Shown piece after piece: positions 25,260-35,950 of a stretch of 64,000 nucleotides of DNA. The DNA comes from Salinibacterium sp. G-O1 (GTDB lineage: Bacteria; Actinomycetota; Actinomycetes; Actinomycetales; Microbacteriaceae). A model generated the notes under the pieces. That model did not search any database, was not told the DNA's origin, and was given only the letters and a program-made list of their open reading frames with translations. Location of the stretch: assembly GCF_030063305.1 (NCBI RefSeq), contig NZ_JASISV010000001.1, positions 558,001 through 622,000 of the forward strand, read 5' to 3'. How positions within the stretch are numbered: position 1 is the stretch's first letter; every line of letters starts with the position of its first letter. The position numbers and the translations under genes are program-made.

Positions 25260-26585
25260 GTGTTTAGAGCTGTCGCGCGGATCTTCCGCACGCCCGACCT
25301 TCGCAGGAAGATCGGGTTCACGCTCGGCATCGTTGCGCTGTTCCGTCTCGGTTCGTTCATCCCCGCTCCGTTCGTCGATTTCGGCAACGTGCAGCTGTGT
25401 CTCGCAGGAAATGCCGGCACCCAGGGTTTGTACGATCTCGTCAACCTCTTCAGTGGTGGGGCTTTGCTCCAGCTGTCGATCTTCGCTCTCGGGATCATGC
25501 CGTACATCACGGCGTCGATCATCGTTCAGCTGCTGCGCGTGGTCATCCCACACTTCGAGACTCTGTACAAAGAGGGCCAGGCTGGCCAGTCGAAGCTGAC
25601 GCAGTACACCCGCTACCTGACGATCGCGCTTGCTGTACTCCAGTCAACAACGCTGATCACCGTCGCGCGCAGCGGTTCGCTCTTCCCCTCCAACTCCGGC
25701 GTAGCCGAGTGCAGCCAGCTCATCACGGATGATTCCTGGTACGCCATCATGCTGATGGTCATCACCATGACGGCAGGCACTGGCCTCATCATGTGGATGG
25801 GTGAGCTCATCACTGAGCGCGGCATCGGCAACGGCATGTCGCTGCTGATCTTCACGTCAATTTCGGCTCAGTTCCCCGGCTCGCTCAGCAGCATCCTCGC
25901 CGCAAAGGGCGTTGAGGTCTTCATCGCGGTGATCGCCGTTGGCATCATCATCGTGGCCGCTGTGGTGTTCGTGGAGCAGTCGCAACGTCGCATCCCGGTG
26001 CAATATGCAAAGCGGATGGTCGGCAGGCGCACCTACGGTGGCAACAACACGTACATTCCGATCAAGGTCAACATGGCTGGCGTTGTGCCAGTGATCTTCG
26101 CATCGTCGTTGCTGTACCTGCCTGCCCTGATTGCGCAGTTCAACACACCGGCTGCCGGCGAGGCTCCGGCCGAGTGGGTCGTCTGGATCCAGAACTATCT
26201 GACCTCGGGCGATCACCCGCTCTACATGCTGCTCTACTTCGCCCTCATCGTCGGGTTCACGTACTTCTACGTCGCGATCACCTTCAACCCAGAAGAGGTT
26301 GCCGACAACATGAAGAAGTACGGCGGATTCATCCCCGGCATTCGCGCGGGTCGTCCGACCGCCGAATACCTGGACTACGTGCTGACGCGCGTTACCCTGC
26401 CGGGTTCTCTCTACCTCGGCCTGATCGCGTTGATCCCGCTGATCGCGTTGGTGCTCGTTGGCGCCAACACGAACTTCCCGTTCGGTGGGGCAAGCATCCT
26501 GATCATCGTCGGCGTGGGGCTCGAGACCGTGAAGCAGATTGACTCGCAGCTTCAGCAGCGTCACTACGAAGGGCTGCTCCGTTGA
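25260..26585 (+). CDS. secY: Protein translocase subunit SecY
   Basis: The 441-residue central channel of the Sec translocon. I chose GTG at 25260 because GGAGG lies just before it and [20 protein letters not shown] is the normal actinobacterial SecY N-terminus; the in-frame TTG at 25233 has no support. About ten membrane segments are visible, including the plug/second helix region with [20 protein letters not shown] (about 69-88) and cytosolic loops with [15 protein letters not shown]. The stop overlaps the adk TTG start (TTGA). Confidence 0.96.
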
Positions 26586-27181
26586 CCCGGCTTCTCCTCA
26601 TCGGGCCGCCCGGAGCAGGAAAGGGCACCCAGGCCGCTCGGCTTGCTGAGAACTACAGCATCCCCGCCATCTCCACCGGAGACATCTTCCGCTTCAATGT
26701 GAAGAACGAGACGGAACTCGGCTCCAAGGCGAAGGCCTACATGGATGCCGGCGACAATGTTCCGGATTCCCTCACCAACGCGCTCATCCGCGACCGTCTT
26801 GCCGAGTCTGACTGTGACGCAGGATTCCTGCTTGACGGCTACCCCCGCACGACGGACCAGGTGCGCGAGCTCGACGAGTTTCTTGCCGGGCACGGCACGG
26901 CGCTCGATGTTGTCGTGGAACTGGTCGCAGATCCGGATGTGGTCGTCGAACGACTCCGCAAGCGGGCGAGCGAACAGGGACGCAGCGACGACGGGGAGTC
27001 TGTCGTGAGACACCGCCTCGAGGTCTACCGCGACCAGACCGAACCGTTGATCGATGTTTACGATGGTCGCGGAGTGCTGGTGAAGGTCGATGCGATCGGC
27101 GAGATCGACGTCGTAACCGAGCGGATCACCGCCGCTCTCGCAGTGCGCGGCATCGAGCTCGCGGGCCACGCGAGCCACTAG
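26582..27181 (+). CDS. adk: Adenylate kinase
   Basis: A 199-residue enzyme that interconverts ATP + AMP and 2 ADP. The P-loop GPPGAGKGT is at residues 8-16, followed by the AMP-binding STGDIFR and LLDGYPRT motifs. The LID is the short form without the four-Cys zinc site ([12 protein letters not shown]), as usual in actinobacteria. The start is TTG overlapping the secY stop, which is uncommon but forced by the alignment of the N-terminal [11 protein letters not shown]. Confidence 0.96.
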
Positions 27182-27183
27182 TC

Positions 27184-28017
27184 GTGGCATTCGGCAACCG
27201 AAAGCTCTATAAGACTCCAGCTGAGCTGCGCCTGATGGTGGAGCCCGGAATACTCACGGCGGCTGCGCTTGCAGCCGTCAGGCTGGCCATTGCCCCAGGG
27301 GTCACGACCCTCCAGCTGGATGCAATCGCCGAGCGGGTCATCCGCGCGGGTGGCGGCGTGCCGAATTTCATGAAAGAGCCCGGCTACCGACACACGATCT
27401 GCGCGTCGGTGAATGATGAAATCGTTCATGGCGTTCCCGGTGACCGCGTCATCGCGGCCGGCGATTTGGTGTCAATAGACTGCGGTGCAGAGGTGGGCGG
27501 CTGGAACGGCGATGCTGCCTTCAGCGTCGTGGTGCCCGACCCCTCCCGACCCGAGGTCGTGGCGCAGCGGCAGCAGCTGTCCGACGCCACCGAACGTTCG
27601 CTGTGGGCTGGAATCGCGGCGCTGGCTACCGCGCGCAAGCTCAACGACGTTGGTGGCGCGATCGAGGATTCCCTGCAGGGCGACATCGAATACGGCATCG
27701 TCGAAGACTTCACCGGGCACGGGATCGGCCGTTCCATGCATGAAGATCCGCCAGTGTTCAACTATCGCGTGCGGGGATCGAGCCCGGAGATCAAACCAGG
27801 GCTCGTGGTGGCGATCGAGCCCATGGTGACCATGGGCGGCATCGACTCGCACGTGCTCGCCGATGACTGGACGATCGCGACAAACGATGGGCTCGACGCA
27901 GCGCACTGGGAGCACTCGATCGCTGTGCACGCCGGCGGGATTTGGGTTCTCACGGCGGAGGACGGCGGCGCTGACAAACTCGGGCCGCATGGCGTCATCC
28001 CGGTTCCTGTCGCCTGA
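27184..28017 (+). CDS. map: Methionine aminopeptidase, type I
   Basis: A 277-residue metallopeptidase that removes the initiator Met from nascent proteins. The five metal ligands are all present: the aspartates in SIDCGAEVGGWNGDAAF, the His in TGHGIGRSMHEDPPV, and the glutamates in VVAIEPMV and WEHSIAVH. The start is GTG two bases after adk. Convergent with the deacetylase gene, it ends three bases away, and the usual neighbour infA is displaced by the sugar locus. Confidence 0.96.
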   Translation: MAFGNRKLYKTPAELRLMVEPGILTAAALAAVRLAIAPGVTTLQLDAIAERVIRAGGGVPNFMKEPGYRHTICASVNDEIVHGVPGDRVIAAGDLVSIDCGAEVGGWNGDAAFSVVVPDPSRPEVVAQRQQLSDATERSLWAGIAALATARKLNDVGGAIEDSLQGDIEYGIVEDFTGHGIGRSMHEDPPVFNYRVRGSSPEIKPGLVVAIEPMVTMGGIDSHVLADDWTIATNDGLDAAHWEHSIAVHAGGIWVLTAEDGGADKLGPHGVIPVPVA

Positions 28018-28020
28018 CTC

Positions 28021-28746
28021 CTAGGGGAGCAGCCGTGTTGTGCGGGCGCGCAGGTGCACGTTGCATGACACAAAGGCTTCGGCGTAGCGAACGCCGGACT
28101 GAAGCCCACGGAAGGCAGCGACTGTCGTTATCTGCCCGAGTACGTCCATGTCGTCGTGGTGCTCCAGCCACGTCAACTGGCTCGCGTGGGAGCGCATCAT
28201 CGCCAACTTGGTATCGAGCTGCTCGGTGATGTCGACAAACTCGCTCGGTTGGAAACCCAGGCCAGCCATGGTGTCCATGTAGAAGAGCGCCGGAACCGCA
28301 CCGATCGGATCACTCCCCGTGTCGTAGAGGGGGAGTGTCGCGAGAAAGCTTGCTGAGAAGGCCAGCGCGGAGGCCTGATTGTGGTCCTCCATATAGTCGC
28401 CGGGCGAGTGGGTGATGATCACGTCTGGACGCGCACGTCTGATCGCGGTGGCAACGAGAAGCTTTTGATCCTCGCTGCTGGCATCGACCTCCCCGTCTGA
28501 AACTCCCAGATTCACATAGTCCGCGCCAATCAGCGACGCCGCCGAACCAGCCTCGCCACGGCGGGTCTCGGCCACGTCGGAACGCGTGCCCGAGGTTGCG
28601 CCGCGGTCACCGCCGGCGATGTGGCACATCGTCACGTGATGACCCAGTGACCGGTACTTTGCGAGAGTTCCCGCGCACATCAATTCAAGGTCGTCGGGGT
28701 GGGCGCCGATACCCATGATCCTCAAGGACGCGGACGGTACAGCCAT
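28021..28746 (-). CDS. PIG-L (LmbE-like) family deacetylase
   Basis: A 241-residue zinc-dependent de-N-acetylase-type protein. The metal site is the AHPDDLELMCAG motif (about 14-25) and the HSPGDYMEDHNQA segment (about 112-124). Relatives remove N-acetyl groups from GlcNAc-containing substrates such as mycothiol precursors, teicoplanin-type compounds or bacillithiol precursors. It is downstream of the ROK regulator, with AGGAGA before the ATG at 28746, so it belongs to the sugar locus rather than to mycothiol synthesis; an N-acylated sugar substrate is inferred. An upstream in-frame start at 28797 would overlap the ROK gene and lacks a ribosome site. Confidence 0.85.
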   Translation of the reverse strand: MAVPSASLRIMGIGAHPDDLELMCAGTLAKYRSLGHHVTMCHIAGGDRGATSGTRSDVAETRRGEAGSAASLIGADYVNLGVSDGEVDASSEDQKLLVATAIRRARPDVIITHSPGDYMEDHNQASALAFSASFLATLPLYDTGSDPIGAVPALFYMDTMAGLGFQPSEFVDITEQLDTKLAMMRSHASQLTWLEHHDDMDVLGQITTVAAFRGLQSGVRYAEAFVSCNVHLRARTTRLLP

Positions 28747-28756
28747 GGTGTTTCTC

Positions 28757-30010
28757 CTAGCGGGTGAGGTCGAGAAGTTCGTGTTCGCACGCGTCAATCG
28801 CCCGGCGACACGCGCCGATCAGCACGGCGTCATCGCCCAGTCCGGCGAGGAGGAGATCGGTGGTCAGCGGTGTGAGTTCGTTGAGCAGTTGCGTGAGCCG
28901 CTCGAGCATCCACGAGCCAGCTCGCGAAATGCCGCCGCCAATGATCACGAGGCTGGGATCAAGGATGCTGATCACCGACGCAATTCCCGCCGCGGTGTAC
29001 GCGAGAAGTGGTTCAACAATCGCGACCGCCTCGGGGTCGCCCGCTTCTGCATGGCGGTAGATGAGCGCTGCATCGACCCGCTGACGATCCCCTCCAGCGG
29101 CATTGACCAACGATCGACCTCCGCCAGACTCGATGAGCTTTTGGGCGGCACGCTGATACGCGGCGCCGCCAACGAGCGTTTCGAAGCGTCCGCGCCGGCC
29201 TTCGGTCGCCTCCGTGTCCAACCCAACGAGGGGCAGGTAGCCGATCTCGCCAGCACCACCGCGCGCCCCTCTGATCAGCTTTCCGGACTTCACGATGCCG
29301 AGCCCGACACCAAAGCCCAGGTGCACGTATGCCACATCGTCACACCCTCTGGCCGCCCCCCGCCATTGCTCGCCGACCACGGCGAGGTGAACCTCGTTCT
29401 CGATGTGAATGGGGCAATCGCCCAGAAAAGACATCTCGGCCACCAGATCGATGTCGTCCCAATCCGGCAGCTGTGGAGCGAGGGTCACCCGCTGCGTGGT
29501 GGGATCCACGATGCCCGGCGTCGCGATGCACAACGCGCGAATCTCCGAATTCTCAAGGTTGGCCGCCACGATGGCACGTTGCAGGGCTGCGCGCACCATG
29601 TCGAGAACTTCGGCGCCGGTGGCGACACCAATCAGATCGACCTGTTCCTGCGCGACCAGGGTGCCGGACAGGTCAGACACCGCCACGCGCGCACGTGTCG
29701 CGCCGATGTCAACGACGGCAACGTGGGCCGAGTCTTCGCGAAACGAGAGCAGCCGCGCGCGTCGACCGGGGCTGCCGGTGGGAGGCTCGGGGGTCTCGGT
29801 CACGCGATCTTCGTTGAGCAATTCGGTGGCGACGGCATCCACAGTGATTTTGGAAAGCCCCGTCGCTTTGCTGATGGCCGGGCGCGACATCGGCCCGCGC
29901 GTCCTGAGAGTGGAAAGCACCTGGCTGCGGTTCATCCTGCGCATCAGCTGCGGGGAACCGGTGACGGCAACAACGTGGTCACGCTCGGGGCTTTCCTCTT
30001 GCGGACACAT
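28757..30010 (-). CDS. ROK-family transcriptional regulator
   Basis: A 417-residue protein with an N-terminal winged helix (about 30-75; PAISKATGLSKITVDAVATE) joined to a ROK sugar-kinase-like domain. The phosphate-binding motif reads DIGATRARVAVSD in place of DIGGTK. The usual ExGH sugar-binding motif is EIGY (in GGAGEIGYLPL), and the Cys-rich zinc motif that normally follows is absent. This points to a non-catalytic sensor with an unusual ligand. It is divergent from the catabolic/transport operon and has AGGAAGG upstream inside a palindrome. Repression relieved by the imported sugar is inferred. Confidence 0.88.
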   Translation of the reverse strand: MCPQEESPERDHVVAVTGSPQLMRRMNRSQVLSTLRTRGPMSRPAISKATGLSKITVDAVATELLNEDRVTETPEPPTGSPGRRARLLSFREDSAHVAVVDIGATRARVAVSDLSGTLVAQEQVDLIGVATGAEVLDMVRAALQRAIVAANLENSEIRALCIATPGIVDPTTQRVTLAPQLPDWDDIDLVAEMSFLGDCPIHIENEVHLAVVGEQWRGAARGCDDVAYVHLGFGVGLGIVKSGKLIRGARGGAGEIGYLPLVGLDTEATEGRRGRFETLVGGAAYQRAAQKLIESGGGRSLVNAAGGDRQRVDAALIYRHAEAGDPEAVAIVEPLLAYTAAGIASVISILDPSLVIIGGGISRAGSWMLERLTQLLNELTPLTTDLLLAGLGDDAVLIGACRRAIDACEHELLDLTR

Positions 30011-30016
30011 AATAAA

Positions 30017-30036
30017 TAAGTTACCTTCCTAACTAA
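30017..30036. promoter_or_regulatory. Near-perfect inverted repeat, candidate ROK operator
   Basis: TAAGTTA-CCTTCC-TAACTAA (7-6-7, one mismatch between arms) lies in the divergent region between the ROK regulator and the isomerase gene, directly at the ROK ribosome site. ROK repressors bind AT-rich palindromes of this size, so it may control both directions. Confidence 0.6.
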
Positions 30037-30106
30037 TCAAATGACAAGTCCGAACCGGAACCCCGGACACCCTTCCATCGGACTCGCGAAGCCGAAGGAG
30101 ACTTTC

Positions 30107-30919
30107 GTGGAAAACAAGATCTGTCTGAACAGCAATACCTACCATGGCTTCGATTTCACGGATGCGGTCCGGGGCGCGCGAGACGCAGGCATCCATTTCA
30201 TTGAGATAGCGGCCGTGCGCGGGTACACCGAGCACGCTCGCTGGGAAATGACCGACGACGAGGTCGGGGCGATGCTGGCCACCCTGCGCGAGAACGACAT
30301 CACGATTCTCGGAATGTGCGGCCACACCAACATCATGACCGAGGACGGTCGCGAGAACCTGCGGAAGAATCTCGGCCTTGCTGCCAGGCTGGGCGCGTCC
30401 TATGTCGTCACGGGCACTGGCGAGACTCACGGAGACGAACACGTCATCGAAGATGACACCGAGCTGGTGGAAATTCTGAGAGAGCTGTCGGCCGTAGCGG
30501 AAGGCCACGGACTCACGCTCGCGGTCGAGACACATGGGGCGAGCTACGCCACCGGCGTGCAGATCAAGGAGCTCATCGGCAAGGTGGGCGCCCCCAACTT
30601 CAAACTCAACTACGACACGGCCAATGTCATCATGTACGCCGACACTCAGCCATACGACGACCTTCGCGAGAGTGCAGACGTGATCGTCGGTATTCACCTG
30701 AAGGACAAGGCCGGCGAAAGCGCGGAATGGAACTTCCCGGCGATCGGCGACGGGGATACTGACTTCGCGCGGGTGTTCTCGATTCTTCAAGAGACGCACT
30801 GCGTTGCACCCCTGAGCATCGAGATCGAGTTCACGTCGGAGGGGCCGGCATCGGTCGACGAGGTGCACGACGCGCTCGTGCGCTCGGCGAACGTTGTTCG
30901 CTCGCTGCGAGGAGAGTAG
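30107..30919 (+). CDS. Sugar phosphate isomerase/epimerase family protein
   Basis: A 270-residue TIM-barrel protein of the xylose isomerase-like superfamily. Likely metal ligands are the Glu in VETHG, the Asp in LNYDTANV, the His in GIHLKDK and the Glu in SIEIEF. I chose GTG at 30107 (GAAGGAGA upstream, protein starts ENKICLNSNTYHG); the in-frame ATG at 30041 adds 22 residues of no family character. It is the first gene of the + strand operon and is followed nine bases later by a dehydrogenase, a pairing typical of keto-sugar or inositol catabolism. The substrate is unknown. Confidence 0.85.
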   Translation: MENKICLNSNTYHGFDFTDAVRGARDAGIHFIEIAAVRGYTEHARWEMTDDEVGAMLATLRENDITILGMCGHTNIMTEDGRENLRKNLGLAARLGASYVVTGTGETHGDEHVIEDDTELVEILRELSAVAEGHGLTLAVETHGASYATGVQIKELIGKVGAPNFKLNYDTANVIMYADTQPYDDLRESADVIVGIHLKDKAGESAEWNFPAIGDGDTDFARVFSILQETHCVAPLSIEIEFTSEGPASVDEVHDALVRSANVVRSLRGE

Positions 30920-30928
30920 GCGAACACG

Positions 30929-31957
30929 ATGACGACAATTGCGATCGTCGGGCAGGGCTACATGGCGCGGACGCACGCCGCATCGTGGGCGAAATTGGGA
31001 TTCGCGGAGAACATCAAATACATCCAGACTCCTCGACCGGGTGAACCTCTCGAGCATGCCCCCTCGGCGACCTTCGTGACCGATCTCGATGCCGTGCTCG
31101 CTGACCCTGAGGTCGACGTGATCTCGATCTGCAGCCCGACCGACAGCCATCCGGAGATCGCGATTCGCGCGCTGCGGGCTGGCAAGAACGTGCTGCTCGA
31201 GAAGCCGATCGCCCTGACAATCAGCGACGCCCTCAAGATCCGTGATGCCGCCAGGGACAGCGGCGCGATCATGATGATCGCCCAGGTCATCAGATTCTTC
31301 AAGGGGTATCAACTGCTTCGTGATGACGTGCGCGACGGCCACCTCGGCACCGTGCTCTCGGTGCGGGGCTCCCGGTTGAGTAACCGGCCCGACTGGGCGA
31401 AATGGTGGCACGACGAGGAGCGTTCCGGTGGAGTCGTCGTGGATTTCAGCATTCACGACTACGACCAACTCAACCTGTTTCTGGGAGAGCCGGTAGCTGT
31501 TTCGGCGGTCAGCGTCAGCACGCTCGGTCCCATCGAGACGACCGTGGAGTATCGCGGGGGTGGAGTGGGGCAGGTGCTCAGCTTCGCTGACACCGCCCAG
31601 GGCGTTCCGTTCACGAGTTCGATCGAGGCTCTCGGAACGAAGGGCATGGCCGGGTACGACTTTGCGGCGGCCGCGCCCACAGCTGGGGCATCCGGTGTCA
31701 ATGTCTACTCGCGATCCGGTGTCAACGGGTCTGAATCCCGCGAGATCGAGGGCGATGACCCGTACACGGCACAGGTCGAGTACTTCCTCGATTGCATTCG
31801 CCACACCAGGCAACCGGGCCTCAGCACCACAGAGTCCGCGATCCGCGCGCTCGAGGTCTCGCTCGCGGCCCGTCAGTCAATCGCCACCGGTAGACGCATA
31901 ACCATCGAGTCGTGCGTAGCAGATGCTGATGCCGCCGGGACGGTGTTCGCGCCGTGA
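30929..31957 (+). CDS. Gfo/Idh/MocA-family sugar or cyclitol dehydrogenase
   Basis: A 342-residue NAD(P)-dependent oxidoreductase. The Rossmann motif GQGYMARTHAASW is at about 8-20, the EKPIALT motif (lysine of the active site) at about 91-97, and the VVDFSIHDYDQLN segment (about 170-182) carries the catalytic Asp/His pair. The C-terminal alpha/beta domain is complete. The stop overlaps the permease start by four bases (GTGA), coupling oxidation to import. The substrate is probably the imported sugar or its deacetylated form. Confidence 0.87.
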   Translation: MTTIAIVGQGYMARTHAASWAKLGFAENIKYIQTPRPGEPLEHAPSATFVTDLDAVLADPEVDVISICSPTDSHPEIAIRALRAGKNVLLEKPIALTISDALKIRDAARDSGAIMMIAQVIRFFKGYQLLRDDVRDGHLGTVLSVRGSRLSNRPDWAKWWHDEERSGGVVVDFSIHDYDQLNLFLGEPVAVSAVSVSTLGPIETTVEYRGGGVGQVLSFADTAQGVPFTSSIEALGTKGMAGYDFAAAAPTAGASGVNVYSRSGVNGSESREIEGDDPYTAQVEYFLDCIRHTRQPGLSTTESAIRALEVSLAARQSIATGRRITIESCVADADAAGTVFAP

Positions 31958-32913
31958 ACGCGTCGGTAGCGCAACATCCCGTCCTGCGCCTTCTCGCCAG
32001 GAACAATCTGTGGGTTGCGCTGCTCGTTGCGGTGATTGGTCTGAGCATCGCCTCGGCAACATTCCGGAATCCGGCCAACCTGCAGAACATCCTCGCTCAG
32101 AACGGCATCATCGGCATCGTCGCAATGGGCATGCTGGTGATGATGATCAGCGGGGGCTTCGACCTCTCGGTCGGCGCGGTCGGCGGCGCAGTCGCGGTTC
32201 TTGCCGCGTTCATCTCGCGCGAGGTCGGGCTGCCTGCAGCGTTGCTCGCCGGAGTGCTGCTCGCGACAGTAACCGGCCTCATCAACGGCCTCATCATTGC
32301 CCGGTTGCGAATCAACTCGTTCATCGCGACTTTCGCGCTGGCGAGCATCGTCACCGGGATCATGTTCGTGATCACTCAGGGCAAGTCGGTGGTGGGCAAA
32401 TCCGCTGAGTTGCAGGCGTTCGCGTATGGCTCAGTGTTCGGCGTCTCCTACCTTTTCCTCGCGTTCATGATGTTCGCGATTCTGACCCACCTCGTGCTCA
32501 CGAGAACCAAATGGGGCCACTGGATCTTCAGCGCTGGAGCAAACGAGCATGCCAGCTACCTCTCCGGGGTGCCAGTGGTGCCCGTAAAGATCGCGGCCTT
32601 CGTGTTCGGCGGAATCGCAACAGCGCTGGGCGGCTTGCTGATGTTCGGCCAGTCAGCGATCGGGCAGCCGACAGGAGCCGAGGCGTGGCCGCTGAACGCC
32701 ATCGCGATCTGTGTCATTGGTGGCACTGCACTCTCTGGCGGAGTCGGGCGGGTAAGCAACGTCATCGCAGCGACCATCCTGCTCGGCGTCATCGGGAACG
32801 GGATGAACCAGCTGGGGGTCTCGCCGTACTGGCAGCCCGCCGTCGTGGGCGCCATCATCCTCGCCGCCGTGATCGCCGACCGGGCGGGACGTTCGCGTGA
32901 CAGTGACCACTGA
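31954..32913 (+). CDS. Sugar ABC transporter permease, RbsC type
   Basis: A 319-residue integral membrane protein with about nine helices and the family signature SGGFDLSVGAVGGAVAVLAA (about 65-84), followed by the INGLIIARLRINSFIATFAL region. This is the permease class of the ribose/galactose/autoinducer-type (CUT2) importers, where one permease forms a homodimer. The GTG start overlaps the dehydrogenase gene. The binding protein follows after 63 bases. Confidence 0.92.
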   Translation: MNASVAQHPVLRLLARNNLWVALLVAVIGLSIASATFRNPANLQNILAQNGIIGIVAMGMLVMMISGGFDLSVGAVGGAVAVLAAFISREVGLPAALLAGVLLATVTGLINGLIIARLRINSFIATFALASIVTGIMFVITQGKSVVGKSAELQAFAYGSVFGVSYLFLAFMMFAILTHLVLTRTKWGHWIFSAGANEHASYLSGVPVVPVKIAAFVFGGIATALGGLLMFGQSAIGQPTGAEAWPLNAIAICVIGGTALSGGVGRVSNVIAATILLGVIGNGMNQLGVSPYWQPAVVGAIILAAVIADRAGRSRDSDH

Positions 32914-32976
32914 CGTGTTTCCCATCGATTCACAGAATGACCCAACCCATCACATACACAGAAAAGGTGCACCGCA

Positions 32977-33975
32977 ATGAACTCTCACAAGCGCACTAAC
33001 GTGCTCATGGCAAAGTCAGGGGTTGCCGCAATCGGCATCGCCAGTCTCGTCGCACTGGCAGGCTGTAGCTCTGCCAGTCCAGACGCTGCTCCCGGCGAGG
33101 CGGCCGGCTGCGACAACATAACGTTCCTGATCAACAACATGGCCAACCCCTGGATCGCAACCCTTGCCGACGGTGCTGTCGCGCAGGCTGCCGAGCTGGG
33201 CGCAAACCTCACCGTGCAGGACGGCGCCAATGACAACGCCACGCAGATTGCTCAGCTTCAACAGGCCGTTGCCAATGGCACCAGCGGCATTCTGATCCAG
33301 AGCATTGAGGCTGACGGGATCGTCCCCGCGGTCCAGCAGGCCAACGCCGCCGGAATCCCCGTCGTCGCCGTGAACGCGAACGTCGGCGACGGCGCCGAAC
33401 TCGTCACCTACGTAGGCGTCGATCAGTCGGATTATGGAGTCGGTCTCGCTCAGCTCGCCGAGCAGGCAATCCCGGACGGTGGAAAAGTCGCCCTCATTCA
33501 GGGCATCGTCGGCAACCCAGTCGAGGTGCTGCGCACCGAGGCATTTGTCGAAACGATCGGCAAGAATCCAGCGATCGAGATCGTCGCAACCGTCACGGAC
33601 AACTGGAGCAACGACGAAAACCTCGCCGTCGTCCAGGACCTCCTCACGAAGTTCGGTCCGGGTGAACTCGACGTCATCGTTGCCGAGGGACCCGAGATTT
33701 ACATCGGCGCCCAGTACGCGCACAGCATCGGGCGTGACGACGTGAAGTTCGTCGCCGGTGACTTCCCCAACCAGGTCCACGCGGGCATCGAATCCGGCGA
33801 GGTCTACGGCGCAGTGCTGCAGGATGGGGCAGAACAGGGCAAGGCAGGAATCACGGCCCTCTGCAGCTGGCTCGAAGGAAACGAGGACGCTGTGAAGCGG
33901 CCCACCGACTTCGTCGAGCTGCCGCTCGTGACCAAGGAGAACCTCAGCGAGTTCAGCACCTCCTGGGACTGGTAA
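32977..33975 (+). CDS. Sugar ABC transporter substrate-binding lipoprotein, RbsB type
   Basis: A 332-residue secreted lipoprotein. A signal peptide ends in the lipobox LAGC at about residue 29, followed by a Ser/Ala/Gly linker. The mature part begins with CDNITFLINNMANPWIATLA, the first strand and sugar-binding Asn/Trp region of periplasmic-binding family 4, and both lobes are complete through FSTSWDW. It lies between the permease and the ATPase, followed by a strong hairpin, which would let it be made in excess as binding proteins usually are. Confidence 0.92.
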   Translation: MNSHKRTNVLMAKSGVAAIGIASLVALAGCSSASPDAAPGEAAGCDNITFLINNMANPWIATLADGAVAQAAELGANLTVQDGANDNATQIAQLQQAVANGTSGILIQSIEADGIVPAVQQANAAGIPVVAVNANVGDGAELVTYVGVDQSDYGVGLAQLAEQAIPDGGKVALIQGIVGNPVEVLRTEAFVETIGKNPAIEIVATVTDNWSNDENLAVVQDLLTKFGPGELDVIVAEGPEIYIGAQYAHSIGRDDVKFVAGDFPNQVHAGIESGEVYGAVLQDGAEQGKAGITALCSWLEGNEDAVKRPTDFVELPLVTKENLSEFSTSWDW

Positions 33976-33987
33976 CCAGCCTGTAGC

Positions 33988-34021
33988 TGCGCCGGCCGAC
34001 CTTCGCGGGTCGGCCGGCGCA
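33988..34021 (+). terminator. Hairpin between binding protein and ATPase genes
   Basis: A perfect 14-bp GC-rich stem (33988-34001 with 34008-34021) with a six-base loop lies immediately after the binding-protein stop and 27 bases before the ATPase start. There is no T-run. It would stabilise the upstream mRNA or terminate part of the transcripts, lowering ATPase output relative to the binding protein. Confidence 0.6.
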
Positions 34022-34048
34022 GACGCATCCCATCGAAAGAGGAGCACG

Positions 34049-35581
34049 ATGCCAGAACTGCGCGATCCCGTCCCCCCTCGGGTGCAGATGATCGGGATAA
34101 GCCAGACCTTCGGAACCACGACGGTTCTTCACGACGTCGGACTGAGCATTGCGCCGTCGGAGATTCACGCCCTGGTGGGACAGAACGGGGCAGGCAAGAG
34201 CACACTGATGAAGATTCTCGGTGGCATCTATCCGGAACACCAGGGAACCGTGCGAATCGACGGCCACGAAGCAACACTGTCGTCACCGCGGGATGCGCTG
34301 CGCGAGGGCATCGGACTGATTCATCAGGAACTGAGCCTCGTTCCATCGCTGACGGTGGCCGAGAACATCATGCTGGGTATCGAGCCCGGCCGCGCCCTCT
34401 ACGGCAAGAAGACGACGCGAGACGCTGCTCACGCCGTCGTCTCACAAGTCCCGATGTTGGCCAGTCTTCCGCTGTCATCGCTCGTTTCCGAACTCAGCAC
34501 CGGCCTGCAGCAGCGGGTCGAGATCGCAAAAGTCCTGTCACGCGACGTGAAGGTGCTGGTGATGGATGAGCCGACGGCGCGACTCTCGGGGCCGGAACGA
34601 GCCGACCTTCGCGACCTCATGGTCGAACTCGCACGGAGCGGGATGGCGATCGTCTACATTTCCCACTTTCTCGAGGAAATCTTCCAGTCGTGTCACTCGG
34701 CAACGGTCCTTCGCAACGGTCGGGTTGTCGACAGCGGACCGATCGAAAAGTTCACCCTCGGATCGATGACCCGCGCGATGCTCAACGAGGAGCTCGCGGC
34801 CGAGGAAGCCGCCGCCACCTCCAGGGATGATCGGCGAATCGCGATGAAGCCGGTAATCGAACTCGTCGGGGTCACATCGGCGCGGGTGTCGGATATCGAT
34901 CTTGTGGTCAGCGAGGGCGAGATCGTCGGCCTGGCGGGCCTGGTTGGTTCGGGTCGCTCGCGAGTCGCCCGCACCATAGTCGGCGCTGAGCGCCTCACCG
35001 CGGGGCAGCTTCTCGTCGACGGGAAGCCAGTGTCGATCCACGGCCCCCGTGCCGCACTCGCGAGAGGCATCGTGCTGGTGCCGGAGGCCAGAAAGACGGA
35101 GGGCATCATCGGATCGGCCACCGCAGCGAAGAACATGATCCTCATGGCGCTGGACCGCGGCCTTGCCCCGCGGGGGGTGATCGATCGCAAGCGAAGTGTC
35201 GCGGCGATTGCCGACAAGTTTTCCGGACTACAGATTCGCCCGGCCGATCCGGCGCTTGAGGCCCAGCGCTTCAGCGGGGGAAACCAGCAGAAGCTGCTCC
35301 TCGCACGCGTGCTCCTGGCGCGGCCGCGCATGATCGTGGCAGATCAGCCGACCGCCGGCGTGGACGTTGGCACCAAAGCGCAGATCCATCGCCTGCTCAG
35401 AGCCGCCGGAGCCGACGGCACGGCGATCCTCGTTGCCTCGGACGACCTTGACGAGCTCATCGCCCTGTGTGATCGAATCGTCGTGATGAAAGATGGGCGT
35501 GTCGTCGGCTCGCACCTTCGGTCCGAACTCACCAGACAGAACCTCATCGACCTGATGTCGGGGGCAGAGGCGATCCATTAG
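34049..35581 (+). CDS. Sugar ABC transporter ATP-binding protein, two fused nucleotide-binding domains (RbsA/MglA type)
   Basis: The 510-residue protein has two ABC domains. Domain 1 carries Walker A GQNGAGKST (about 46-54), an LSTGLQQRVEI signature and Walker B VLVMDEPTA. Domain 2 carries a degenerate Walker A GLVGSGRSR (about 300-308), signature FSGGNQQKLLL and Walker B MIVADQPTA. One degenerate site is normal in CUT2 importers. GAGGAG precedes the ATG. With the permease and binding protein it completes the importer of the sugar locus. Confidence 0.93.
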   Translation: MPELRDPVPPRVQMIGISQTFGTTTVLHDVGLSIAPSEIHALVGQNGAGKSTLMKILGGIYPEHQGTVRIDGHEATLSSPRDALREGIGLIHQELSLVPSLTVAENIMLGIEPGRALYGKKTTRDAAHAVVSQVPMLASLPLSSLVSELSTGLQQRVEIAKVLSRDVKVLVMDEPTARLSGPERADLRDLMVELARSGMAIVYISHFLEEIFQSCHSATVLRNGRVVDSGPIEKFTLGSMTRAMLNEELAAEEAAATSRDDRRIAMKPVIELVGVTSARVSDIDLVVSEGEIVGLAGLVGSGRSRVARTIVGAERLTAGQLLVDGKPVSIHGPRAALARGIVLVPEARKTEGIIGSATAAKNMILMALDRGLAPRGVIDRKRSVAAIADKFSGLQIRPADPALEAQRFSGGNQQKLLLARVLLARPRMIVADQPTAGVDVGTKAQIHRLLRAAGADGTAILVASDDLDELIALCDRIVVMKDGRVVGSHLRSELTRQNLIDLMSGAEAIH

Positions 35582-35629
35582 CTGGTCGCGCACGATACAC
35601 CCCGAGTAGCGAAACGCCCGGGAATGACC

Positions 35630-35673
35630 TAAGCTTGATCCTTGGTGTTTCTGGCCGGTTTTGCCGTGCCTGA
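35630..35673 (+). promoter_or_regulatory. infA promoter -10 box and conserved leader element
   Basis: TAAGCT (35630-35635) is a plausible -10 box; I see no good -35. Nine bases on comes GGTGT (35644-35648), and CGTGCCTGA at 35665-35673, both matching the rplM leader with the same -10-to-GGTGT spacing and resembling the rpsL leader. The leader to infA is then about 87 bases. Confidence 0.45.
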
Positions 35674-35728
35674 AAATGCCGAAATCCCCGCAGACCAGCG
35701 AAATCTAACTTTTAGCGACGAAGAGGCT

Positions 35729-35950
35729 ATGGCCAAAAAAGACGGTGTCATCGAGATTGAGGGCGCAGTAGTCGAAGCTCTACCCAACGCAATGTTTCGC
35801 GTTGAGTTGACCAACGGCCACCGTGTACTTGCTCACATTTCGGGCAAAATGCGACAGAACTACATCAGGATCCTCCCGGAGGACCGTGTGGTTGTGGAGT
35901 TGAGCCCCTATGACCTGACCCGCGGCCGGATCACCTACCGCTACAAGTAG
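35729..35950 (+). CDS. infA: Translation initiation factor IF-1
   Basis: A 73-residue OB-fold protein, the standard IF-1 length, with [20 protein letters not shown] and the [19 protein letters not shown] core. It blocks the 30S A site during initiation. I start at the ATG at 35729; the frame is open upstream to a GTG at 35642, but that region contains the promoter leader. It begins the infA-rpmJ-rpsM-rpsK-rpoA-rplQ cluster. Confidence 0.97.

Follow-up and report, generated by a model that had tools for sequence, protein, structure and literature searches.

The window analysed here, a stretch of 64,000 nucleotides from Salinibacterium sp. G-O1, corresponds to positions 558001–622000 of contig C1 in a genome of 3.14 Mb and 6 contigs. 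It contains a locus of seven genes (Table 1). Genes for a predicted PIG-L N-deacetylase and a ROK-family protein run leftward, while those for a xylose-isomerase-like TIM barrel protein, a Gfo/Idh/MocA oxidoreductase, and the permease, binding protein, and double-domain ATPase of a CUT2 ABC importer run rightward. The function of the PIG-L protein and the pathway it may serve are the subject of this analysis.

Gene families were assigned using the Pfam gathering cut-offs, and subfamilies were checked against the NCBIfam equivalog cut-offs. The layout proposed in a first-pass annotation of this DNA was confirmed: coordinates and strands match the open frames, and all seven proteins scored above the cut-offs of their Pfam families. 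None of them reached an NCBIfam cut-off among the matches listed (for the ATPase, 25 of 190 matches). A separate kinase gene is absent from the locus, and the ROK protein contains a ROK domain but matches no kinase model at its cut-off.

Table 1. Features of the seven-gene locus and its borders (window coordinates).
Feature	Position	Strand	Assignment and remarks
PIG-L (LmbE-like) N-deacetylase, predicted	28021..28746	-	PF02585, 87.9 bits (cut-off 28.2)
ROK-family protein, probable repressor	28757..30010	-	PF00480, 162.6 bits, residues 99-401; start maybe 29944
Divergent ROK/TIM barrel promoter region	29944..30106	.	imperfect palindrome 30017-30036
Xylose-isomerase-like TIM barrel protein (epimerase/isomerase)	30107..30919	+	PF01261 (AP_endonuc_2), 105.9 bits; open frame from 30041
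Gfo/Idh/MocA oxidoreductase	30929..31957	+	PF01408, 87.5 bits
CUT2 ABC permease	31954..32913	+	PF02653 (BPD_transp_2), 124.6 bits
CUT2 sugar-binding protein (lipoprotein by eye)	32977..33975	+	PF13407 (Peripla_BP_4), 170.6 bits; aligned to ribose-binding proteins
CUT2 double-domain ATPase	34049..35581	+	PF00005 (ABC_tran), two matched stretches, 176.1 bits
Native map-infA spacer, right border of insertion	35609..35727	+	upstream of infA; aligns with the spacer of congener G735

The likely start of the PIG-L gene is the ATG at 28746, 11 bp past the ROK stop codon; the open frame reaches a TTG at 28797. Residues H10, D12, D13, and H116 were invariant in all 22 aligned rows. They belong to the AHPDD...H motif, whose residues we take to have metal-binding and catalytic roles. 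The predicted model, with a predicted local distance difference test score (pLDDT) of 94.1, matched BC1534 (2ixd; Z 30.0), BshB (29.7), GalB (28.8), diacetylchitobiose deacetylase (28.4), and MshB (22.9). The match to the archaeal diacetylchitobiose deacetylase (Dac) extended over 218–219 residues (Z 28.1–28.4) with only 26–28% identity in the fold alignment, and is unspecific, since BshB and GalB scored similarly. The PIG-L fold and the metal-site motif are also common to BshB1/BshB2, MshB, and Mca, which are enzymes of thiol biosynthesis and conjugate amidases. However, all four NCBIfam cut-offs were missed, among them those of BshB1 (TIGR04001; 118 versus 182.5 bits) and MshB (TIGR03445; 30.7 versus 224.35 bits), and the gene context is catabolic, not thiol-biosynthetic. 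A role in thiol biosynthesis was rejected on the missed cut-offs.

The probable start of the TIM barrel gene is a GTG at 30107, placed by eye behind AGGAG. Its product has five residues, E163, H165, D192, H219, and E261, that were invariant in 15 of 15 rows. The importer was assigned to the CUT2 type on the combination of a BPD_transp_2 permease, a Peripla_BP_4 binding protein, and a double ATPase. All three components fell short of the RbsABC equivalog cut-offs (89.9 of 337 bits for RbsB, 159.7 of 398 for the permease, and 370.4 of 745 for RbsA). The alignment of the binding protein to ribose-binding proteins was also read by eye at the positions we take to be the ribose contacts of Escherichia coli RbsB. 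Asn13, Asp215, and Gln235 were kept, but most contacts (Asn64, Asp89, Arg90, Asn105, Arg141, and Asn190) were replaced. Import of ribose was rejected on the missed cut-offs and the replacement of most of these contacts.

Linkage of PIG-L to a NagB-like protein

Relatives of the TIM barrel protein at 1e-12 or better were found in 12 of 395 other genomes of the phylum, 11 of these from one family, f28. The PIG-L gene was present in the short stretch examined in 10 of the 17 TIM barrel loci from these genomes and absent from 7 (L008, L009, L018–L022), of which 4 contain a permease of the CUT2 kind. Homologous loci without PIG-L, which the first-pass annotation had named as evidence against its grouping, therefore do occur, next to those in which the linkage is kept. 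The PIG-L proteins of the 10 loci and of the window were aligned and used as a query for further PIG-L loci, and the best 80 of 537 confirmed candidates were compared. The ten f28 loci selected by the TIM barrel protein, each shorter than 4 kb, were counted apart from these 80. Neighbouring genes were clustered within 9 kb; TIM barrel and Gfo/Idh/MocA genes were labelled loosely by hidden Markov models on six-frame open frames. The loci span Glaciibacter superstes (Microbacteriaceae, 53% identity), Clostridia, including animal-gut members, Chloroflexota, Paenibacillaceae, Spirochaetota, Kiritimatiellota, and others. Two of the PIG-L proteins (L006 and L043) are identical.

The commonest recognised neighbour of PIG-L was a divergent NagB-like protein of about 315 residues. 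Of the 80 loci, 46 have its gene no more than 9 kb from PIG-L, and 29 have it as the immediate same-strand neighbour; it was also found in 4 of the 10 short f28 loci. Co-occurrence was counted at E thresholds of 1e-45 for PIG-L and 1e-25 for the NagB-like protein in 346 genomes of the phylum, taken to be the same set in both searches from matching genome labels and counts. PIG-L was detected in 14 genomes and the NagB-like protein in 24; 14 genomes encode both, 10 the NagB-like protein only, and 322 neither. Thus, all 14 PIG-L genomes, including that of the window, also encode the NagB-like protein, with both genes side by side in G398 and G465. Among 347 genomes of the order, with the window genome counted in, the PIG-L subfamily was found in two and the NagB-like protein in one, which is the window genome. 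The other PIG-L genome of the order (G091) gave a weaker match (4.6e-48) and has an enolase-superfamily neighbour. Two f28 genomes of only 1.5–1.6 Mb (G511 and G529) contain five NagB-like matches each, an expanded family in small genomes.

In Salinibacterium sp. G-O1 itself, the NagB-like gene is located at C2:1052548-1053462 (E 9.4e-113) in a run of genes for a binding protein, a ROK protein, the NagB-like protein, an ATPase, and a permease, i.e. a second ROK/CUT2 locus (L109). The description of the window locus as self-contained was therefore too strong, because the gene for its probable partner enzyme lies in another part of the same genome. The second locus (L109:7544-12876) adjoins genes that by eye resemble ilv genes (dihydroxy-acid dehydratase and acetolactate synthase).

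In the PIG-L tree, the window protein groups with those of L023, L027, and L117 at 99/97 support, with unsure branching inside the group. A NagB-like gene is present in each of these three loci and adjoins PIG-L in L027 and L117. In G. superstes (L023), a single locus has ROK and PIG-L genes facing those for a Gfo/Idh/MocA oxidoreductase, a binding protein, an ATPase, a permease, and the NagB-like protein; a TIM barrel gene was not recognised in it. The grouping of the seven genes as a coherent unit, as originally suggested, is borne out by its recurrence. Namely, 12 of the 80 loci have both a TIM barrel and a Gfo/Idh/MocA gene no farther than 9 kb from PIG-L, in 11 cases both on the PIG-L strand. 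In L120 (G495; same phylum, other class), genes for a ROK protein, a binding protein, a 503-residue ATPase, a permease, PIG-L, the TIM barrel protein, and the oxidoreductase form one run on one strand together with the NagB-like gene. The run continues with genes for a URO-D protein and a BadF-family ATPase; the BadF family includes kinases of N-acetylglucosamine (GlcNAc). The URO-D gene that follows the NagB-like gene in L120 (7630-8772) has similar-looking counterparts by eye in L043 (6132-6794) and L058 (13580-14587). The products of these genes may transfer a methyl group from an O-methylated substrate.

A PfkB kinase was encoded in 17 of the 80 loci, 16 of which also have the NagB-like gene, and a class II aldolase in 11, all of them with the NagB-like gene; each of the two families was named from one scanned member. 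One operon (L096) includes a GH112 lacto-N-biose phosphorylase, an enzyme that yields free N-acetylhexosamine, and other operons include GH3, GH65, or DUF4838 proteins. No other common family was evident among the remaining operon genes in a Pfam tally of 75 of the 157 unlabelled open frames (20 of these scanned individually), where at most 4 of the 75 share one.

The NagB-like protein had no Pfam match at 0.001 in the two members scanned, and three members missed the cut-off of the nagB equivalog TIGR00502 (78.4, 48.7, and 45.2 bits; cut-off 236.9). The model of the L023 member (mean pLDDT 85.5; low confidence at the beginning of the chain) matched glucosamine-6-phosphate deaminases best (Z 29.2 for 2bkv and 28.4 for the E. 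coli enzyme, 1dea), followed by 6-phosphogluconolactonases (up to 23.1). Residues were compared in 42 of the 53 cluster members, those of at least 270 residues, with the canonical-looking NagB of the window genome (L104) as reference. Asp64, Glu65, and His134 were kept in 42 of 42 members and Glu139 in 41; Asp64, His134, and Glu139 presumably correspond to the catalytic D72, H143, and E148 of E. coli NagB. By contrast, Ser39 was replaced by Pro in 41 of 42, Arg163 by Ser or Gly in all 42, and Lys198 by Gln in all 42. These positions we take to be those of the E. coli phosphate ligands, i.e. the loop, Arg172, and Lys208. The NagB-like protein of the window genome retains the same catalytic residues and has the same phosphate-site changes. 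Since the catalytic residues are kept and the presumed phosphate ligands are replaced, the protein appears to deaminate an amino sugar that carries no phosphate.

Proposed pathway and competing explanations

On balance, we lean towards the view that the window locus imports an N-acetylated amino sugar and begins to degrade it without prior phosphorylation. The CUT2 importer would take up the sugar, either free or as a small derivative, from which the cytoplasmic PIG-L protein would remove the N-acetyl group. The NagB-like protein of the second ROK/CUT2 locus would then convert the free amino sugar to a ketose with release of ammonia. The PfkB kinase and class II aldolase encoded in related loci suggest that a kinase would act only after this deamination. 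The TIM barrel protein and the oxidoreductase would probably serve to adjust stereochemistry or to open some rarer derivative, and the ROK protein would probably keep the locus repressed in the absence of the sugar. The first-pass annotation had seen a deacetylase in place of a kinase. This was not supported: the kinase seems to be a later step, because related loci have PfkB and aldolase genes together with the NagB-like gene. An N-acylated sugar, one of the two substrates it had offered, is favoured by the NagB-like partner and by the lacto-N-biose phosphorylase of a single operon. The other, an aminocyclitol, is less likely, because NagB-type deaminases act on open-chain aldoses.

More broadly, a widespread and so far undescribed pathway can be envisaged, and we regard it as a serious though tentative possibility. 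In it, PIG-L and a new NagB subfamily would process free N-acetylhexosamines and a kinase would act on the ketose only, with the enzymes split over two ROK/CUT2 loci in Salinibacterium sp. G-O1. In the route proposed for the window locus, the TIM barrel protein and the oxidoreductase are regarded as accessory, with a role that it does not explain, because they are not seen in some loci that contain PIG-L and the NagB-like gene. These are L117 and L071, which cover 18–21 kb, and the short contigs L037 and L049.

Several observations weigh against the route proposed for the window locus. The NagB-like gene of the window genome lies outside the window, unlinked and on another contig. No NagB-like gene was found within 9 kb of PIG-L in 34 of the 80 loci, though many of these contigs are short; among the loci of at least 15 kb, it was present in 21 of 42. 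Eleven of the 14 co-occurring genomes belong to the single family f28, which leaves four independent families (f1, f28, f63, and f83), and in G383 the sole NagB-like match is weak (3.7e-37) and lies about 7.6 kb from PIG-L. The phosphate-binding residues are assigned by analogy with the E. coli enzyme. The column of E. coli Asp141 contains no Asp in any of the 42 members (Met in 31), so the chemistry may differ; this column is a weak guide, as the reference NagB of the window genome has Thr there. A hydratase, GalB, is also among the fold matches of PIG-L. Finally, an enolase-superfamily dehydratase is encoded in 12 of the 80 loci and never together with the NagB-like gene; therefore, PIG-L of this type feeds at least two routes. 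The enolase-superfamily group (L031, L082, L084–L087, L091, L097–L101), which often has a short-chain dehydrogenase/reductase or a zinc alcohol dehydrogenase, perhaps represents an oxidative amino-sugar route.

The best surviving alternative, which we nevertheless hold to be unlikely, assigns the first step to the oxidoreductase and the TIM barrel protein. They would open a glycoside or derivative of an N-acetylhexosamine by 3-keto chemistry (oxidation, elimination or epimerisation, and reduction), as known for levoglucosan and C-glycosides; PIG-L would deacetylate the product, and phosphorylation and the ordinary NagB would follow, with the NagB-like protein unused. This agrees with the NCBIfam matches below cut-off, which place the oxidoreductase among 3-keto-type dehydrogenases and the TIM barrel protein among sugar epimerases, with the joint presence of both genes in the 12 loci mentioned above, and with the canonical-looking NagB in the genome. 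It does not account for the NagB-like protein in all 14 PIG-L genomes, nor for the persistence of PIG-L and NagB-like genes in the four loci in which TIM barrel and Gfo/Idh/MocA genes were not recognised. The levoglucosan (LgdA-B1-B2-C) and inositol (Iol) loci likewise combine Gfo/Idh/MocA enzymes with xylose-isomerase-like TIM barrels, but the equivalog cut-offs were missed here, and to our knowledge those loci contain no PIG-L or NagB-like gene.

Still less probable is an N-acylated, rhizopine-like aminocyclitol as the substrate, the ring of which would be handled after deacetylation by an IolG-like oxidoreductase and the TIM barrel protein. The best NCBIfam match of the oxidoreductase is indeed inositol 2-dehydrogenase IolG (123.7 bits, below the cut-off of 355), and the TIM barrel protein matches IolE weakly (22.7 bits), but the NagB-type partner, PfkB kinase, aldolase, and lacto-N-biose phosphorylase of related loci point to aldoses. 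We give the least credit to PIG-L being another metal enzyme, similar to the 4-oxalomesaconate hydratase GalB, that acts on a keto product of the oxidoreductase and TIM barrel protein: 5cgz, a structure of GalB, ranks with the best matches by fold (Z 28.8) and by sequence (E 9.1e-13), but BshB and Dac fit about equally well (Z 28.1–29.7), a step that frees an amine would go naturally with the linked NagB-type deaminase, and while the fold alone cannot choose between a deacetylase and a GalB-like hydratase, the partner gene favours deacetylation.

The order of reactions proposed for PIG-L and the NagB-like protein, i.e. deacetylation, isomerising deamination, and then a kinase with an aldolase or glycolysis, is that of the NagA–NagB pathway for GlcNAc and the AgaA–AgaS pathway for N-acetylgalactosamine (GalNAc). 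Unlike those, it would employ ABC import, a PIG-L enzyme, and a NagB-like protein devoid of the phosphate-binding residues. In the Dac route, a PIG-L enzyme deacetylates unphosphorylated GlcNAc compounds and deamination takes place after phosphorylation; we know of no CUT2/ROK locus associated with it. In the NagA–NagB pathway, phosphorylation precedes deacetylation. For GalNAc, too, the sugar is reported to be phosphorylated first (PMC12118421). No description of a PIG-L/NagB-like route was found among the matches listed in open-licence PubMed Central titles and abstract openings; subscription journals and preprints may differ. Bacterial GlcNAc and GalNAc catabolism is usually described as proceeding from phosphorylation to deacetylation and deamination, and the PIG-L/NagB-like pair, if interpreted correctly, would constitute a separate route. 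It would also assign a function to two groups of proteins for which no specific family cut-off was reached here.

Divergent promoter region and site of insertion

The ROK protein is probably a repressor, by analogy with NagC and Mlc, in which an N-terminal extension also precedes the ROK domain. Here, this extension comprises 98 residues, which gave no match to a Pfam helix–turn–helix family at 0.001 but look helix–turn–helix-like by eye. The NagC and Mlc equivalog cut-offs were missed (127 of 650 and 101.7 of 530 bits). Among the compared loci, the closest ROK proteins are encoded next to PIG-L in L117 (43%) and, in the window genome itself, next to its NagB-like gene in L109 (37%).

The palindrome reported earlier in the divergent promoter, for which no position had been given, was not recovered as a regulatory element. 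The best candidate with arms of 7–10 bp, around TAAGTTA-N6-TAACTAA at 30017-30036, was matched by 34% of 300 Markov shuffles and by 57% of 300 random 162-bp stretches of the window, i.e. it is no better than chance, and was rejected. In L109, L023, and L058, no copy of the 20-mer was found even when 6 mismatches were allowed. It had one match at 6 mismatches in L117, 17 bases upstream of the ROK open frame, and scattered matches at 5–6 mismatches in L120 and L122. A longer imperfect palindrome (81%) at 30074-30099 is separate from the element compared with chance.

The locus sits within a ribosomal-protein cluster, between map (27184-28017) and infA (ATG at 35729). The distance between the map and infA matches is 7,711 bp here versus 158 and 411 bp in two congeners (G735 and G739) and 212 and 245 bp in two genomes of the order (G001 and G002), and none of the seven genes had a match in the map–infA stretches of these four genomes. 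To the right of the ATPase gene, the native spacer is retained; its alignment with the G735 spacer scored 164, while the best of 200 shuffles reached 22. Because the junction is short in the four relatives, the seven genes are absent from it, and the native spacer is retained, the seven-gene locus represents a clean insertion that separates map from the leader region of infA. It was most likely acquired by horizontal gain. No relative of the TIM barrel protein at E 1e-20 or better was found in 197 other genomes of the order, and plasmid records contained only distant ones (31 records, all below 60% identity; 28.7% for the top-ranked). A search for mobile-element borders revealed no exact stretch of at least 7 bp common to both junctions. 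Positions 35578-35703 contain a 20-bp direct repeat (70% identity) and a 10-bp inverted repeat.

The flanking genes differ in their conservation. Identity to two congeners is 61–83% for adk and 72–75% for map, as compared to 98–99% for rpoA and 100% for infA; for secY, it is 94% to one congener. A map match at 1e-60 is missing from 7 of 11 other relatives, 6 of these 7 being congeners. The adk–map stretch (26582-28017) may be a replacement hot spot.

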